Source of the DNA: Akkermansia sp.
Lineage (GTDB): Bacteria; Verrucomicrobiota; Verrucomicrobiia; Verrucomicrobiales; Akkermansiaceae
Reading direction: 5' to 3'
NCBI RefSeq assembly: GCF_020860705.1
Contig: NZ_JAJBTT010000009.1
Location: 1 to 64,000 of the forward strand
Length of the DNA: 64,000 bases
This document shows positions 36,457 through 47,660 of this stretch, piece after piece (position 1 is the first letter of the stretch; each line of letters starts with the position of its first letter). A program made the position numbers and the translations under genes. Under the pieces are notes generated by a model, which saw nothing but the letters and a program-made list of their open reading frames with translations, was not told the origin of the DNA and did not search any database.

Positions 36457-39075
36457 ATGCCCCCGTCAACTACCGTCAAACTCCCTGTCCAGCTGGTCAG
36501 GCAGCTTCACTCCTTCCGCCGCCGCCTCAGAACGGTCAAGATGCTGGAAGCCGCATGTCTTGCAGGCATTGCCGTGATTCTTTCCTACGTCCTCCTGTTC
36601 CTCTCCGACAGATTGTGGGAAACGCCTTCCGCCGTGGGCTGGATTCTTTTCTTCACCGCCGTGGCCGGCGTGGCGTTTTTCATCCCGTGGTGGAGTTTCC
36701 GGTGGGTGTGGCAACGGCGCACGGAAGCCCAGCTGGCGCGCCTGATTTCCCGGACGGATGCGGCCCTGGGAGACCGTCTCCTGGGCGTCATTGAACTGGA
36801 TTCTGAAAAACACGCATCCCATTACAGTTCTGAAAAGTTGAAGGTGGCCGCCATGGAACAGGTGGCCCGAGAGGTTTCCGCACGCGACCTGACGGTCAAC
36901 ATCCCCCGGCCCAGCCACAAGAAGTTGTTCATCCTGCTGGCCATCCTGGCTTTCTGCACCGCCGGCGTATGCCTGGTCACCCCGGAAGCGGCCGGGAACG
37001 CTCTGAAGCGCTGGCTCCGCCCGTTCAATCCTCCGGAACGCTATACGTTCACCCAGCTGGACCCCACGCCGGATTCCCTGGTCATCCCCCTGGGGGAAAG
37101 CTATCTGTATGAACTCAAACTGGCGGAGGCTACCAAGTCCCGCCCGGAAACCGGGGAATACTTCTTCCATAACAGGGTGCGCCAGCAGGCCCCCCTGACG
37201 GACGGCGCCTATAAAATCCATATTCCTCCCATGCAGCAGGCGGACAAGCTGGAGTTTTCTGCGGGAGACGTCGTGCGCCGCCTGAAAATCATTCCGAAGG
37301 CCCGCCCCTCCTTGCTGGGAGCTACGGCCACCGTGGCCTATCCCTCCTATATGGCACGTCCCGAAGGCCACGAAGCCATGCGCGCCGGCGTCATTTCATC
37401 CCCGGAAGGGTCCACGCTCACGCTGAAAGTAACCGCTTCCCAGCATTTGGCATCCGCATCCACCACGAAGGGCAAGCCGCTGCAAGTGGAAGGGAGCAGC
37501 GTCATCATTCCGGACATCCACCTGGAAAAGGACCCGGAGGAGATAGAGCTGACCTGGACGGACCGTGACGGGCTGGCGGCATCCCAGCCCGTCCGGATCC
37601 GCCTGGAACCCATTGAGGACAAGCAGCCGTCCATTTACCTGAGAGGCGGGGAGAATGACCGCCACGTCCTGGAAGACACCAGCATTGAACTGGAAGTGGA
37701 GGCGGCGGACGATTTCGGACTCCGGGAAATGGGGGTGGAATGGCAGGGGGAAAAATCCTTTTACGATGACGAACAGGACGGAGGAACGGCTCCGGACCCG
37801 GTCAAGGCGGAAAAACCCGTTCCCGGCCTGCGCGGGGAAAAGGTTCTGGCAAACGGCCATCCCACGCAGACCAGCTTGAAAGGGACGTACCTGTTCCAGG
37901 CCAGGGCGCTGAAACTCTCCCCCCAGCGCGTGGTCGTGCGCGGCTTCACGCAGGATTACAAGCCCGGAGGTAAGCGCGTTTATTCGGAACCCATGATCAT
38001 TTTCGTCCTCTCCAAATCAGAGCACGCCCAGATGATCCGCAATGAACTGGAACGCATCACCAGCGAGCTGGAAGGCATGATCCGCCGCATGGACGCCATG
38101 GCGGACGAGGCGAAGCGCCTGAAAGGGATGGAAAACAACGAACTGAAAAATTCGCAGGTTCAGGAACGCCTGCACGCCCTGGCTGACGAAGAGCAGACCA
38201 ACAGGCGAGAATTGAGCGAATTGCTCAACCGCTCGGAAAACCTGTTCAAGGAGGCCTCCCGCAATTCCCAGATCGACCCGGCCGGCATGAAGGAATTCAT
38301 GAAGGGCATCTCCATGCTGAAACCCATCCCCAACGGTCCCATGAAGAAGGCGCAGACGCAGTTCCGGAATTCCGCCTCTGAAAACCGCTCTGCACAGGAA
38401 AGCCGGAAAGACCTGGATGACGGGGAGAATTCCCACTCCAACGCCACCCAGGCCCTGAAAGACGCCATGAACCAGCTTGCCAAATCCGCGCAGGACATGG
38501 AAGCCAGCACCTTTGTGGCGCGCCTCAAGCAGGCCGCGGCCAAGGAGGATTCCATCGCGAACGCCTTGGCTGGACAGATCAATATCATTGTGGGCATGAC
38601 CATGGATGAACTGGACCCCTCCACCAAGCGGGAGATGGAAACCATCGCCACCCTTCAAAACGCCTCCACGCAGGACATCGGCTGGATTCTGGAAGATCTC
38701 AGTTATTACAAGTCCCGTACGGGAGAACGCATTTACAGCGACCTGTACAACCAGATGAACGCCTTTTCCCTCCGGGAGAAACTGGACCTGGTGCACGGCA
38801 ACATCCTGAACGCGATCACGGCCCGCTCCATTGACGAATCCCGCCTGTATGCCTCCACCCTCCTCCACTGGGCCAAGCTGATAGACGACTACAAGAAGAG
38901 CCGTAATGACGGTGGCGGAGGTGATGGCGGCGGCGACCAAGGCTCCATTTCCGACGCCGAGTTCGAATTCATGCTGAAGATCATCCGCATGATCCAGCAG
39001 GAACAGGACATCCGCATGCGCACCCGCGCCGCCGAACAGGAACACCGCAAAACCCTTACTCCACCCGCCCCATGA
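36457..39075 (+). CDS. Large membrane protein with coiled-coil region, DUF4175-like
   Basis: 872 aa. The N-terminal region has three membrane spans: ~30-55 (MLEAACLAGIAVILSYVLLF), ~60-80 (VGWILFFTAVAGVAFFIPWW) and ~150-170 (KLFILLAILAFCTAGVCLVT). A conserved block between them (ARLISRTDAALGDRLLGVIE) is typical of DUF4175-type proteins. The middle (~200-520) is beta-rich. Residues ~525-830 are highly charged helices with coiled-coil character, and a GGGGDGGGD linker precedes the end. It heads a compact five-gene operon and overlaps the next gene by four bases. Function unknown; a scaffold in the envelope is an inference. Confidence 0.75.
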   Translation: MPPSTTVKLPVQLVRQLHSFRRRLRTVKMLEAACLAGIAVILSYVLLFLSDRLWETPSAVGWILFFTAVAGVAFFIPWWSFRWVWQRRTEAQLARLISRTDAALGDRLLGVIELDSEKHASHYSSEKLKVAAMEQVAREVSARDLTVNIPRPSHKKLFILLAILAFCTAGVCLVTPEAAGNALKRWLRPFNPPERYTFTQLDPTPDSLVIPLGESYLYELKLAEATKSRPETGEYFFHNRVRQQAPLTDGAYKIHIPPMQQADKLEFSAGDVVRRLKIIPKARPSLLGATATVAYPSYMARPEGHEAMRAGVISSPEGSTLTLKVTASQHLASASTTKGKPLQVEGSSVIIPDIHLEKDPEEIELTWTDRDGLAASQPVRIRLEPIEDKQPSIYLRGGENDRHVLEDTSIELEVEAADDFGLREMGVEWQGEKSFYDDEQDGGTAPDPVKAEKPVPGLRGEKVLANGHPTQTSLKGTYLFQARALKLSPQRVVVRGFTQDYKPGGKRVYSEPMIIFVLSKSEHAQMIRNELERITSELEGMIRRMDAMADEAKRLKGMENNELKNSQVQERLHALADEEQTNRRELSELLNRSENLFKEASRNSQIDPAGMKEFMKGISMLKPIPNGPMKKAQTQFRNSASENRSAQESRKDLDDGENSHSNATQALKDAMNQLAKSAQDMEASTFVARLKQAAAKEDSIANALAGQINIIVGMTMDELDPSTKREMETIATLQNASTQDIGWILEDLSYYKSRTGERIYSDLYNQMNAFSLREKLDLVHGNILNAITARSIDESRLYASTLLHWAKLIDDYKKSRNDGGGGDGGGDQGSISDAEFEFMLKIIRMIQQEQDIRMRTRAAEQEHRKTLTPPAP

Positions 39076-39731
39076 ACGCCGTTACCCTGCCAGCCGTCAT
39101 CCTGGCGCTTTCCCTGCCTTGCTCCGCCGCTCCGGGATCCGCTCCGGAATATTCCGCCAAACACAAGGAGACGGCCTCCAAGCTGGCCGGACAGCAGGAT
39201 GAACTCCAGGCGGACACCTCCGACCTCATCATGGGAGAAACCAACGAGGAAGTGGTGGAACTGTTGAAAAAATGCCGCCATGCCATGAATGACGCCGTAG
39301 ACCTGCTGGAAGTTTACAACACCGGAGGCCAGACGCTGGCGGCCCAGACGGACGTGATTGAACTGATCTACCAGGCCGCCAAGGCCAAAATGACGGGAGC
39401 GGGAGGCGAACCCAAGCCGGGAGGCCAGGCCCTGATGGACATGCTACGCCAGCTTCTGGGCATGGACGGCGATTCCCAGGCCATGGAACAGCAGGAAGGG
39501 GATGGGAATGGAGAAGGACAGAGCGGTTCCCAGAAAGGCCAGGGAAGCAATCCCGGACACGGCCCTAACGGAAAATCCAACATGGCTTCCATCCAGGAAA
39601 AGGGCGTTTCCAATCCGGACATGGCTACGGAAACACGCTCCGTCCCCAAATCCACCGGCATGTCTACGGACGACATGCCGTCCGAATTCCGCAAGGCGTT
39701 GGACGCCTATAATAAAACCCTTCAGAAATAA
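39072..39731 (+). CDS. Secreted Gly/Gln-rich protein of unknown function
   Basis: 219 aa with a signal peptide (MNAVTLPAVILALSLPCSAA). A helical segment follows (KETASKLAGQQDELQADTSD... VVELLKKCRHAMNDAVDLLE), then a low-complexity linker (EGDGNGEGQSGSQKGQGSNP) and a short C-terminal helix (PSEFRKALDAYNKTLQK). The start codon overlaps the stop of the upstream membrane-protein gene (ATGA). The helical and disordered layout suggests an interaction partner of the coiled-coil protein. No family recognised. Confidence 0.7.
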   Translation: MNAVTLPAVILALSLPCSAAPGSAPEYSAKHKETASKLAGQQDELQADTSDLIMGETNEEVVELLKKCRHAMNDAVDLLEVYNTGGQTLAAQTDVIELIYQAAKAKMTGAGGEPKPGGQALMDMLRQLLGMDGDSQAMEQQEGDGNGEGQSGSQKGQGSNPGHGPNGKSNMASIQEKGVSNPDMATETRSVPKSTGMSTDDMPSEFRKALDAYNKTLQK

Positions 39732-39789
39732 CATACGTCCCTCGCCGGACGGCTTCTATCCATGAATGAACACTAACCCCGCTTCACCC

Positions 39790-40794
39790 ATGAAAAAGAT
39801 CATCAGCCTGCTTACCTTTCTGCTCGCCTTCTGCACGGCCGCCGCTCCTCAGAACGCCGCAGCCCAATCCTCCTCCCCCAGGAACTCCTCTCCCGTGCCT
39901 CCCCAAGTGGAGCTGATGTACGTGAAAGGGCTCAGGTACCTCCAGAACGCCCAGAAAGCGGACGGCACTTATGAAGGAACCTACGGGCAGGAGCCCGGCA
40001 TCATCGGCTTCTGCCTCATGTCCGTTCTAGCCCACGGGGACGACCCAAACACGGGTCCGTACGCCACCATGGTCCGCCGCTGCGTGAATTACATCCTGTC
40101 CAAGCAAAACAGGGGCTCCGGCTACATCGGTGATTCCATGTACACGCACGGATTCGCCACCCTGGCGCTGGCGGAGGCCTACGGCATGGTGCGGGACGAC
40201 CGCATAGGCCCGGCCCTCCGGAAAGCCGTAACCCTGACGCTGACCGCCCAGAAGAGGAACAAGACGGGAGGCTGGCGTTATTCCCCGGAGTCCACGGACG
40301 CGGACAGCACGGTAACCGGCTGCCAGATCGTCTCCCTGTTCGCGGCGCGCAACGCGGGCATTCCCGTTCCGGACGAGGCCTTTGAACGCGGCCTCAAGTA
40401 CATGGCCTCCTGCCGTGACAAGAAAGGCGCCTACGGTTATACCGGGCCGTCCGGCCCCCGCGTCACCCTCACGGCCATCGGCTCCCTGACCCTGTCCCTG
40501 GCGCGCCTCAAGACGGACCCGTCCTTCAAGGATTCCCTGGCCTTTCTGAAAAAGAACCTGAATTACCGGGATTCCTCCTATCCGTTCTATTTCGAATATT
40601 ACATGTCCCAGGCCCTGTTCCATGCGGACCAGGAGGTCTGGAAGGAATGGAATTACAAAAACATGCGCTACCTGGGGGCTTCCCAGGCCCCCAACGGTTC
40701 CTGGCTCTCTGAAAACTCCGCCGCATATTCCACCTCCGCGGCCCTGCTCTCCCTGGCTCTCAACTACAGATTTTTACCCATCTATGAACAATAG
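39790..40794 (+). CDS. Secreted alpha/alpha-toroid (prenyltransferase/squalene cyclase-like repeat) protein
   Basis: 334 aa with a signal peptide (MKKIISLLTFLLAFCTAAAP). The mature part is a series of helical hairpins with QW-like motifs: LRYLQNAQKADGTYEGTYGQ, LTAQKRNKTGGWRYSPES, MRYLGASQAPNGSWLSENSA. These place it in the prenyltransferase/squalene-oxidase repeat superfamily. The catalytic DxDD of squalene-hopene cyclases is not intact (TDADSTVTG occupies the similar position), and the protein is exported, so binding rather than terpene cyclisation is more likely. An alternative start is at 39766. It overlaps the next gene by 11 bases. Confidence 0.82.
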   Translation: MKKIISLLTFLLAFCTAAAPQNAAAQSSSPRNSSPVPPQVELMYVKGLRYLQNAQKADGTYEGTYGQEPGIIGFCLMSVLAHGDDPNTGPYATMVRRCVNYILSKQNRGSGYIGDSMYTHGFATLALAEAYGMVRDDRIGPALRKAVTLTLTAQKRNKTGGWRYSPESTDADSTVTGCQIVSLFAARNAGIPVPDEAFERGLKYMASCRDKKGAYGYTGPSGPRVTLTAIGSLTLSLARLKTDPSFKDSLAFLKKNLNYRDSSYPFYFEYYMSQALFHADQEVWKEWNYKNMRYLGASQAPNGSWLSENSAAYSTSAALLSLALNYRFLPIYEQ

Positions 40795-42229
40795 AATACG
40801 CCTTTCCCTCCTGCTGGCTCCGGCCTGCCTGCTGACCGCCTGGGCCAATTCCGTGGTAGACGTGGTCACGGACGACAACTACCGCCTCCGCGGAGAGATC
40901 GTCTCCTACGGCAAGCAGGGCATCGTCATCAAGCATCCATCCATGCGCCAGAATGCGGTCATCCTCCCGTCGGAAATCCGTGCGCTTTATTTTACCGGAA
41001 CTTCCACACCGGACCTGCACGCCAGGGACAAGATTTTCATGGCTACCGGGCACCGGGACATCATCCCCTGCAATATCATCTCCATCACGCCGGACAAGGT
41101 GCAGTACCGGGACATGCTGGGCAATGAACGCTCCATTCCCCGCAGCCAGGTAGCCGGTTTCCGCCTGAATACGCTTCAGGAAAAGGGTTTCTGGCAGGAA
41201 CCGCTGGTTTTTGACAACAGCTGGGTGTATTCCGGCAGCAAGGGGGAGAACGATTACCGCTCCAAATCCGGGAAAAAACTGATCATTGCCCTGAAGCCTA
41301 AAATCCAGGGTGACAAGTACCAGTACAGGCTGGGCAACAGCGACTATCCCACCTGGACGCCCCTGTACAAGAATATCGGGCTGGATCCCACCTCCTTCAC
41401 GTTCCGCACCACCATGACGATGGACGGCAATAATGACCGCACCGGCATTGTCTTCTGCTTCGGAGGGAACGAGAATACCGCCTTCCGGTCCAATTCCGGC
41501 AGCAGCCTCAACAGGCTCATGCTGAGCATCTCCCCAAGCAAATGCACTCTTCTCAGGGAACAGAAGTCCGGCATCATCGTCCTGGGGGAAGTGGATATCC
41601 CCGCCCCCACCCTGACGGAAGGAGTGGACATCAGGCTGACAGCCTCCCGGCAGGGAGAGCATGAACAGGTTTACGAGTTGCTGGTGGGCGACCTGCCTCC
41701 CAGGCTGATGACGGACCCCAGCCCCCCGGAACAGCCCCTGGAAGGGGATGCCTTCGGCCTTCAGATGGAAGGGCACGTCTCCCTTACCATCAGCAAGCTT
41801 GCGCTTTCTTCCATCACACTGAGCGCTAAATCCGTAACTAAAAACGGAAGCGTTGATACGGATCTCGTCCTGACCAAGGAGGAGGACGCCATTCCCGGCT
41901 CCGTCAGCGGCTACAACAGCAAAAACAAGACGCTGACCCTCTCCACAGACAAGGAGTATCCGGGCATTCCCCGTGAGCTTTCCATCCCCGCCAAGTATCT
42001 GGACACGGTCTTTTTTGCAGAACAGAACAAGAAAGGGGACTCTCCCGCTTCCGCCTGCCACAGCATCCTGATGAAAGACGGCTCCCGCCTGCATGGTGAT
42101 ATCCTGAGCATGGATTCCGTCAAAATTGTCCTGCGGCATCCGCAGCTTGGGCAGCTTTCCCTGCCCCTGAAAAATATCACCCGCGTGGAATTCCAGAATT
42201 CCGCTCAGCCCTCCCGCTCCACTCCCTGA
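40784..42229 (+). CDS. Secreted protein with repeated ~45-residue beta motif and LamG-like core
   Basis: 481 aa with a signal peptide (IRLSLLLAPACLLTAWA). A repeated pattern, in which strands with 'DG/D.hxG' precede 'G.h.hP...h..h.F', appears at ~23-70, ~82-127, ~375-415 and ~430-472 (for example KDGSRLHGDILSMDSVKIVL ending LPLKNITRVEF). The centre (~195-340) resembles a LamG/concanavalin-like jelly roll (SFTFRTTMTMDGNNDRTGIV). It starts inside the end of the toroid-protein gene. The neighbour at 42241 has the same layout, which suggests an ancient duplication. Function unknown; surface polysaccharide or envelope binding is an inference. Confidence 0.7.
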   Translation: MNNRIRLSLLLAPACLLTAWANSVVDVVTDDNYRLRGEIVSYGKQGIVIKHPSMRQNAVILPSEIRALYFTGTSTPDLHARDKIFMATGHRDIIPCNIISITPDKVQYRDMLGNERSIPRSQVAGFRLNTLQEKGFWQEPLVFDNSWVYSGSKGENDYRSKSGKKLIIALKPKIQGDKYQYRLGNSDYPTWTPLYKNIGLDPTSFTFRTTMTMDGNNDRTGIVFCFGGNENTAFRSNSGSSLNRLMLSISPSKCTLLREQKSGIIVLGEVDIPAPTLTEGVDIRLTASRQGEHEQVYELLVGDLPPRLMTDPSPPEQPLEGDAFGLQMEGHVSLTISKLALSSITLSAKSVTKNGSVDTDLVLTKEEDAIPGSVSGYNSKNKTLTLSTDKEYPGIPRELSIPAKYLDTVFFAEQNKKGDSPASACHSILMKDGSRLHGDILSMDSVKIVLRHPQLGQLSLPLKNITRVEFQNSAQPSRSTP

Positions 42230-42240
42230 TGCCTCCTGCC

Positions 42241-43665
42241 ATGAAACAAGTAAAAACGCTTTTCCTGGGTTCCTGCGTTCTCCTGGCCGCCGTTCATCTT
42301 CCCGGCGCACAGGCGGATGGAGTCATTACGCTTAAATCCGGGGAAAAAATGCCGGGCAGCCTGGACACGATGGAAAGCCCGTACCTGAAAATCCGGTCCA
42401 GCATTCTTTCCAAGCCCGTGGACATCAAGATCGAGGAACTTGACGAGCTGGTCTCCTCCCGCCCGCTGGACATTCCGGAGCAGTTTTCCGTCATTAAGCT
42501 TGCCAATGGCGATGAACTTTACGGCACACTGAAAGCGCTGGATACGGAAAGCCTTCAACTTCAAACCGCCTGGGGCGGCCTTCTTTCCGTCAATAGAAAG
42601 TATGTGCGGCACATCGGCTTTGATTCACAGAAGGCCTACCTGCGCAACGCGACGGAATCCCTCCAGGGCTGGAAGTCCTCCGCCAACAGGATGCTGCCGG
42701 AATGCCGCAACGGATACTGGATCATGCGCGGCTCCAATAATACGGACCTGCAAACCTCCTTTCCCATGCCGCCCAGGCTCCATGTGCAATTCTCCCTTTA
42801 TCATACCAATACGTTCCGCATCAATCTTTCCCTCTGGCAGGATTCCAACTCCGGAAACAGCATTGACCTGAACATCTCCATGGACAAGGCGGAACTCGCC
42901 AAGTCCAGTTCCTCCCAGTACCGGATGCTCGGCAGAGTCAAGAGGAAAACAGACCAGAACTGGTATTCCGACAAGAGCATCAAGCGCTCCGACGTTCATT
43001 TTTACGCCGACCCGGAAAAAGGCAATTACTATCTGTATATCAACGGCAAACAGATCGCCCGGTGGGAAAACGTCAAGGAAATGGACGACGTCTTCGAGAA
43101 CGAAAACGAAGAGGACGAAGAAGAACCGGCTCCTCCTGAAAAGCATGAATTCAAACCGGGCAATACTCTTGCCGTGAGCGGTTATGACGGCTTGAACATG
43201 GCTATGTTCAACCTGAACGTGTTTGACTGGAACGGGGCCATCCCTCGTCTGGAGGAAGAACAGGACATCATTTCCAGATACGACCCGGACAGCCCTGCGG
43301 ACAAAGCCCTGCTGGTCAACGGAGACGTGCTCAGAGGCGCCATTTCCCTTCAGGAAAACGGCTCCATCCGCATCAAGTCGAACCATTATGACGTCACCAT
43401 TCCCACCGCCAAGGTGCGCTCCCTGGACCAGAAAAGTCCGGAGGAAAGGAAACTGCCGGAGGACGGTTCAGACACCCGCGTTTTCCTGACGGACCAGAGC
43501 GTCCTTTCCCTGACGCTGGAAGCCCTCCGGAACGGCTTCATGGAAGGGCATTCCGCGGCGGCCGGGAAAGTCAGAATTCCTTTGAAATCCATCAGGAAAG
43601 TCCAGTTCAACCTCCAAAATCGGGAACTCCTGAAGCAGAGGAAAACGCCGTTCCTGGGCAAATAA
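42241..43665 (+). CDS. Secreted protein with repeated beta motif and LamG-like core (paralogue)
   Basis: 474 aa from ATG 42241 (MKQVKTLFLGSCVLLAAVHL, signal peptide); ATG 42229 is an alternative start. Beta repeats include LKSGEKMPGSLDTMESPYLK, LANGDELYGTLKALDTESLQ, LVNGDVLRGAISLQENGSIR and the last, ending IPLKSIRKVQF. A jelly-roll-like centre has the tell-tale YYLYINGKQIARWENVK. An acidic loop ENENEEDEEEPAPPE interrupts it. It closes the five-gene operon begun at 36457 and faces proC tail to tail. No enzyme signature seen. Confidence 0.7.
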   Translation: MKQVKTLFLGSCVLLAAVHLPGAQADGVITLKSGEKMPGSLDTMESPYLKIRSSILSKPVDIKIEELDELVSSRPLDIPEQFSVIKLANGDELYGTLKALDTESLQLQTAWGGLLSVNRKYVRHIGFDSQKAYLRNATESLQGWKSSANRMLPECRNGYWIMRGSNNTDLQTSFPMPPRLHVQFSLYHTNTFRINLSLWQDSNSGNSIDLNISMDKAELAKSSSSQYRMLGRVKRKTDQNWYSDKSIKRSDVHFYADPEKGNYYLYINGKQIARWENVKEMDDVFENENEEDEEEPAPPEKHEFKPGNTLAVSGYDGLNMAMFNLNVFDWNGAIPRLEEEQDIISRYDPDSPADKALLVNGDVLRGAISLQENGSIRIKSNHYDVTIPTAKVRSLDQKSPEERKLPEDGSDTRVFLTDQSVLSLTLEALRNGFMEGHSAAAGKVRIPLKSIRKVQFNLQNRELLKQRKTPFLGK

Positions 43666-46610: not shown

Positions 46611-47660
46611 ATGGAACAAGAAACCCTGGTTTATCCGCTTGCAAACAATACTGTTCTGCAAGACAAGTATACGATATTGAATGTCCTGAACGCCGGAGGC
46701 TTCGGCATCACCTACCTGGCGCTGGACAATCCCAATTCCCGGTACGTCGTCATCAAGGAATGCATGCCTGACGCCTACGCCTACCGGGACCTGGAAACGG
46801 GCTTCGTCCACCCGCGGGACGAACAAACGGCCATCAACTTCGCCCAGAGCATTTCCAACTCCCGGCAGGAGGCCTCCGTCCTGTCCCAGCTCAGCCATCC
46901 CGGCATCGTGCAGGTGTTCGACATGTTTGACGCCAACGGCACCTGTTATTACGTCATGGAAAACATTCAGGGCCAAACCCTGTTTGACCTGATGACCACC
47001 ATGCAGGCCACCGGACAGATCATGGAGCCGGCCCGTGCCACGGACCTTCTGTTCCGCCTGCTGGACATCCTGCATTACCTTCATGCGATGGGGGTGTACC
47101 ATTGCGACATCAAGCCGGGCAACATCTTCATCCAGCCGGACGGCACGCCCAAGCTGATCGACTTCGGCGCCGTACGCACCAAGACCCTCCAGCACCAGGG
47201 GCTCGTCCAGATCACACCCGGCTATACCCCGCCGGAATTCTATCCCGGCCGCCGCAGTGAAATAGGCCCCTGGTGCGACATGTACGAACTGGGAGCCACC
47301 TTCTACGAACTGCTCACGGGACAGGTGCCACACCCCGCCGACCAGCGCTCCGTGGTGGACCGCAACCCCAAGGTGACCAACTATGCGGCTCTGCGGAAAA
47401 CCTATCCCATGAACTTCCTTTCCGGAATTGACAAGGCCCTGTCTCCGGATGAACGCAACCGCTTCCATTCCGCCAAGGCGTGGAACGACTACATCAACGC
47501 CATGGCGGCCGCAGGCACCCTGCAGGCAGGCGGCGTGACACGGAAGGCCCTCCCCCAGGCCAGAAAAAAATCTTCCGCAGGCACCGCCTTCTTCATCATC
47601 CTGCTCATCGCGGCGGCAGCCGTCTGGATATGCTGGAAGCAGGGCCTGATCAATTTCTGA
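46611..47660 (+). CDS. Serine/threonine protein kinase with C-terminal membrane anchor
   Basis: 349 aa. The Hanks-type kinase domain spans ~20-285. It has the glycine loop NAGGFGITYLA, the ATP-binding Lys49 in VVIKE, the catalytic loop HCDIKPGN (near residue 165) and the magnesium loop DFGA (near residue 184). The activation segment is TPGYTPPEFY. After a basic linker (ARKKSSAG) one membrane span closes the protein (TAFFIILLIAAAAVWICW), placing the kinase in the cytoplasm with a short outside tail and no sensor domain. Targets unknown. It is followed after 16 bases by the glycosylase-like gene. Confidence 0.93.
   Translation: MEQETLVYPLANNTVLQDKYTILNVLNAGGFGITYLALDNPNSRYVVIKECMPDAYAYRDLETGFVHPRDEQTAINFAQSISNSRQEASVLSQLSHPGIVQVFDMFDANGTCYYVMENIQGQTLFDLMTTMQATGQIMEPARATDLLFRLLDILHYLHAMGVYHCDIKPGNIFIQPDGTPKLIDFGAVRTKTLQHQGLVQITPGYTPPEFYPGRRSEIGPWCDMYELGATFYELLTGQVPHPADQRSVVDRNPKVTNYAALRKTYPMNFLSGIDKALSPDERNRFHSAKAWNDYINAMAAAGTLQAGGVTRKALPQARKKSSAGTAFFIILLIAAAAVWICWKQGLINF

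Follow-up and report, generated by a model that had tools for sequence, protein, structure and literature searches.

The products of the five genes A to E of an Akkermansia sp. genome of 3.07 Mb are probably the extracytoplasmic arm of a machine of the MoxR/DUF58/BatA type that resembles the Bat and Cmd systems. The genes of this machine would have formed one ancestral operon and are now distributed over three Akkermansia loci. The partnership of A-E with the MoxR and VWA proteins is well supported by comparative sequence evidence, and analogy with related systems suggests what the client and the phenotype of the machine may be. MoxR-DUF58-VWA operons are widespread and mostly have no agreed function. 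The system described here is an extended and dispersed form of the MoxR/DUF58/BatA systems. A literature search of incomplete coverage found no paper joining these Akkermansia loci, none naming Amuc_1985-1990 (a guessed range of locus tags), and no mutant data for the system; one Akkermansia paper mentioned MoxR a single time.

Genes A to E and their predicted products

The window, the whole stretch of 64,000 nucleotides that was analysed, carries five tightly packed ORFs on the same strand at 36457-43665 (+). A (36457..39075) encodes an inner-membrane protein of 872 aa, B (39072..39731) an exported Gly/Gln-rich protein of 219 aa, and C (39790..40794) an exported alpha/alpha toroid of 334 aa with squalene-cyclase-like repeats. 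D (40784..42229) and E (42241..43665) encode exported proteins of the same family, of 481 and 474 aa, the latter combining beta-barrels with a ConA-like jelly roll. A sequence-only reading of the window had proposed a five-gene operon, and the spacings that it gave were exact: a 4-base overlap of A and B, a 58-base gap between B and C, an 11-base overlap of C and D, and an 11-base gap between D and E. These values hold with the starts that put a signal peptide at the N-terminus (Met at 39790 for C, 40784 for D, and 42241 for E). Export of all products except A, also proposed there, agreed with the N-terminal hydrophobic stretches of B, C, and D and with a shorter, signal-like one in E, which fell below the hydrophobicity threshold used but has the sequence MKQVKTLFLGSCVLLAAVHLPGAQA-DG. 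Scanning for promoters and terminators yielded a number of sites not above that of shuffles, and Pfam and NCBIfam searches with A, B, D, and E returned nothing usable. A few genes downstream of E, at 46611-47660 of the window, lies a protein kinase-like gene (GGFGITYLAL...HCDIKPGN...DFGAV) with a C-terminal hydrophobic segment.

Protein A has three TM segments (24-42, 58-76, and 157-175, the last spanning 154-175 in the domain layout), arranged as two TM segments, a cytoplasmic loop (~86-153), the third TM segment, three Ig-like domains (~207-518), and a coiled-coil bundle (520-867). Its AlphaFold model (pLDDT 83.8, pTM 0.54) contained the TM helices, the three Ig-like domains, and the coiled-coil bundle. 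Conservation was highest in the cytoplasmic loop and the stretch just after TM3 (mean 0.55-0.59 versus 0.34-0.48 elsewhere). The fold search with A returned generic Ig arrays only (complement, A2M; TM about 0.1). The description of A as DUF4175-like was borne out only weakly. DUF4175 proteins (PF13779) share with A a membrane N-terminus followed by a coiled coil, and 3 of 25 relatives match the profile (best E 6e-5), but A of the window, unlike those three, has no match, and a PF13779 profile search of its own genome found none. That A is only distantly DUF4175-like counts against reading A-E as the arm of a MoxR/BatA machine.

B had been taken for a separate partner, a view that the profile matches to fused A proteins overturned. 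The B profile matched the C-terminal region of the long A of G256 (residues 825-1030, E 1e-56), as well as 16 further long A proteins (weakest E 6e-9); searched with the same profile, short A proteins having a separate B gene were not matched. Judging by these matches, B is a detached C-terminal domain of A produced by a gene split. Because B carries an export signal, the C-terminus of A should lie outside the cytoplasm, in agreement with the positive-inside reading of A that places loop 86-153 in the cytoplasm. A and B are fused in G093 (L037 7803-10634, -) and G256 (L081 6959-10054, +), and since nearly all other members of the family are split, this implies either refusion or two splits. 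In G024:C1:2336751-2339380 (L061), A is seemingly broken near its start, with the first 58 residues in another frame.

The exported alpha/alpha toroid proposed for C was borne out by a match to Pfam SQHop_cyclase_C (PF13243; 33.4 bits versus a cut-off of 26.1). C forms a single toroid with invariant polar and aromatic residues (MY.H, WRY.P, DAD, Y..YY, and NYR.LPIYE) that suggest a binding or catalytic site; among them are W162, R163, Y164, D170, D172, Y267, Y270, and Y271. A sequence search of solved structures gave weak cyclase matches only, with the match restricted to residues 467-592 of squalene-hopene cyclase. C therefore shares the toroid repeats of that enzyme, but not its two-domain architecture of ~630 aa with a DxDD acid, which we take to lie at 374-377. 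In other genomes, C is present in two full tandem copies at G251:C1:2922482-2924471, and a 77 aa C-terminal fragment of C precedes C at L035 13747-13980 (G021).

The model of E (pLDDT 80.7) consisted of two small beta-barrels, a ConA-like jelly roll, and two further small beta-barrels. Single-domain fold matches of E included CBM66 (TM 0.63 on target), glucanases, and galectins, with TM on target of 0.57-0.63. The label 'LamG-like' given to E accordingly stood for the fold, as its model is a ConA-like jelly roll, but not for the sequence profile, which E did not match; among relatives of E, 1 of 37 matched the LamG profile (E 0.0085). The top fold matches of E, receptor-binding domains of clostridial neurotoxins, were discarded (TM 0.27, rmsd >20 A) as a generic combination of jelly roll and beta domain. 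The carbohydrate-binding-module-like jelly roll modelled for E is the sole hint of a possible action on surface glycans.

The longer operon and its dispersal in Akkermansia

Of 195 genomes sampled from the phylum, 43 contained a match to A, in many cases at 25-34% identity along almost the entire protein. The order A-B-C-D/E is kept across Akkermansiaceae at 30-92% identity, so the operon is not a chance arrangement; the neighbourhood, on whose conservation outside this strain the earlier proposal depended, extends far beyond it. Among the nearest 80 C loci listed (one genome per species), nearly all belonged to Akkermansiaceae or to other Verrucomicrobia. The most frequent arrangements were A B C D/E D/E D/E (28) and its variant with two B calls (20); the copy number of D/E varies from 1 to 3.

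Inspection of 20 kb regions revealed a longer, widespread order: MoxR, DUF58, VWA (BatA), a membrane protein of ~730 aa that is VWA/GATase-like, A (with or without B), C, and one to three D/E genes. Twelve Verrucomicrobiota loci of other families carry MoxR-DUF58-VWA-VWA/GATase-A-C, nearly all with D/E, a count that leaves out L040, L044, and parts of L051 and L079 with their high-GC antisense calls. This set occurs without complications in L038, L039, L041, L042, L043, L046, L048, L049, and L052 and with irregularities (small insertions, split calls) in L045 and L089, which have extra genes between, and L047, which has no called D/E gene. L050 has all but one called gene. Since the same long order recurs in other families, the operon in the window is the downstream half of a larger operon.

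The remaining parts lie elsewhere in this genome (G000). A MoxR-DUF58 pair is located at G000:C17:9503-11447, with the same pair in G111, G256, and G093, and the VWA gene with the 730 aa VWA/GATase-like gene at G000:C53:71641-75815. MoxR (AAA_3, 211.7 bits), the DUF58 protein (157.4 bits), and the BatA N-terminal double-TM domain of the VWA protein (71.3 bits; TIGR02226, 72.6 bits) scored well over the Pfam cut-offs. The 730 aa protein matched GATase1_like at 24.4 bits, under the cut-off of 27. MIDAS-type DxSxS motifs are found in DUF58 (D86LSGS), the VWA protein (D97RSAS), and the second VWA (730 aa) protein. In a tree of 28 MoxR proteins, the C17 MoxR nested within the operonic clade (support 99/99), and the two other MoxR proteins of the genome, one of them from a Bat-type operon at C24, fell outside it on long branches. 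By this placement, the C17 MoxR is orthologous to the operonic MoxR.

Gene order and orthology thus indicate that an ancestral single operon is now in three pieces in this genome, at C17, at C53, and as A-E in the window. This overturns the view of A-E as a self-contained five-gene machine: the five genes are a fragment of a MoxR-DUF58-BatA/VWA operon whose ATP-driven half is encoded elsewhere in the genome. MoxR-DUF58-BatA systems form contiguous operons, as in the other families, but not here, where three loci are involved; we took contiguity as usual rather than defining because the parts are orthologous and co-retained. From the layouts compared, dispersal looks stepwise. The system is complete and whole in G066 and G196. 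MoxR through VWA lie together, and A-E elsewhere, in G176, G262, and G198; in G200, too, C lies elsewhere. In G000, G111, G093, and G256, MoxR-DUF58 is away from VWA, and both are away from A-E. The first break, separating the 730 aa protein from A, is seen in the other Akkermansiaceae genera and family f56, and the break between DUF58 and VWA then follows in Akkermansia.

The separated genes are also present or absent together. Among 74 genomes of the order outside Akkermansia, MoxR, VWA, and C were all present in 45, all absent in 24, and mixed in 5. Presence was scored from best E-values (<=1e-138 for MoxR, 1e-65 for VWA, and 1e-65 for C), with cut-offs that were chosen after seeing the values but lie within wide gaps (1e-121 to 1e-140, 1e-18 to 1e-88, and 1e-53 to 1e-67, respectively). 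Assembly accounts for four of the five mixed genomes: three lack MoxR and have a VWA gene that begins 1.0-1.4 kb from the contig start, and in G263 C is in two pieces on two contigs. The fifth, G242, is unexplained. Inside genera g4, g111, and g116, MoxR, VWA, and C always varied in concert, which provides several independent contrasts. Within Akkermansia, A, MoxR, DUF58, and the 730 aa protein were found in the same 15 of 76 genomes. These carriers form one clade in a pheT tree of 30 of the Akkermansia genomes, so their distribution reflects a single gain or loss event and counts once in support. With the system missing from the other 61 of the 76 genomes searched, it does not serve a housekeeping function of the genus; one clade of this genus of gut bacteria has it, and other species do not.

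A proposed trans-envelope machine and its alternatives

We propose that MoxR forms a hexamer in the cytoplasm, where soluble DUF58 would serve as its adaptor, and that this hexamer would use ATP to act on two targets, the VWA proteins of the inner membrane and the conserved cytoplasmic loop of A. The MIDAS domains of the VWA proteins would lie in the periplasm, as suggested here by the basic loop that separates TM1 from TM2; a periplasmic location has been demonstrated for the VWA domain of Borrelia BB0173 (PMC5700661). Movement could then be relayed through the Ig/coiled-coil strut of A to its periplasmic partners, namely B, the toroid C, and the jelly-roll proteins D and E. A membrane-anchored scaffold with exported partners had been suggested before, and topology, models, and the conserved neighbourhood all support it.

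The least certain step is the task of the machine, which by analogy with Rhizobium cmd and the Bat operons may be to assemble or maintain the cell envelope or a surface layer. In Rhizobium leguminosarum, cmdA-cmdD (RL3499-RL3502) mutants have envelope and morphology defects, and a MoxR ATPase, DUF58, and membrane proteins are encoded in one conserved operon, as in the system described here (as described in PMC5700661). Toroid and jelly-roll genes are not described for that operon, and the Akkermansia genes, in contrast, are spread over three loci. The Bat operons of Bacteroides, Leptospira, and Borrelia share the MoxR, DUF58, and BatA-type VWA core, but add BatB-E, TPR, and SH3 proteins. NorQ/NorD and RavA/ViaA likewise pair a MoxR-class AAA+ protein with a MIDAS-type VWA partner, but have known respiratory clients and no trans-envelope strut. 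Against a role in envelope upkeep, most MoxR-VWA systems whose clients are known serve to mature a metalloenzyme. We put forward only tentatively, and consider rather doubtful, the bolder proposal of a distinct class of trans-envelope machine in Verrucomicrobiota, in which a cytoplasmic MoxR motor and three MIDAS proteins would drive toroid and jelly-roll proteins through strut A and so construct or remodel a surface glycan or outer-membrane layer.

Linking three loci that annotation would leave unconnected defines which genes belong together: those for MoxR, DUF58, two VWA proteins, and A-E. The verrucomicrobial operon includes likely periplasmic effectors and so identifies the expected targets of the motor.

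The main rival to this arm of a MoxR/BatA-type machine is a chaperone that inserts a cofactor into a periplasmic client, for which the mxaRSACKL genes, serving periplasmic methanol dehydrogenase, provide a model. Here the machine would insert metal into, or remodel, one exported client enzyme, and C, D, and E would be clients or client-holding factors. MoxR with several MIDAS-type VWA proteins is the toolkit of metal-insertion systems, and the invariant residue set of C would suit such a role, but we judge this reading unlikely: the operon has no conserved candidate metalloenzyme, D/E copy numbers of 1 to 3 are easier to reconcile with a binding layer than with a single client, and the large strut of A has no NorQD counterpart. 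NorQD is likewise described as a cofactor-insertion system (PMC9976466, PMC13036017).

It is less probable still that A-E constitute an independent surface complex that binds or processes glycans, with MoxR and VWA as merely historical neighbours. A-E do remain an operon after parting from MoxR and VWA in two families, and E does resemble CBM66 and glucanase jelly rolls, but the separated loci are co-retained across the order and are all missing together in the other Akkermansia clade. Finally, C is very improbable as a working secreted terpene cyclase-like enzyme for an envelope lipid, with the operon serving C, for despite the squalene cyclase profile matches and an invariant DAD(S/T)T-like segment, this protein is a short single toroid whose match does not cover the DxDD, is exported and so apart from isoprenoid metabolism, and has no isoprenoid genes seen nearby.

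Additional MoxR-DUF58-VWA loci

The Bat-type operon of this genome (L058, G000:C24, 6912-15361), which exists alongside the dispersed system, comprises MoxR, DUF58, VWA genes, and a large BatD-like exported protein, and its MoxR is of a different clade from the C17 MoxR. A second, distant MoxR-DUF58-VWA-730aa-A operon is contiguous in G194 (L056, G194:C75, 6761-15477). Relatives of its A occur in 13 Akkermansia genomes, where the 730 aa protein adjoins nearly always; other genomes with this second system are G287, G277, G295, G307, G308, G283, G273, G268, G267, G021, G251, and G300. Both systems are present in G021, G251, and G300.
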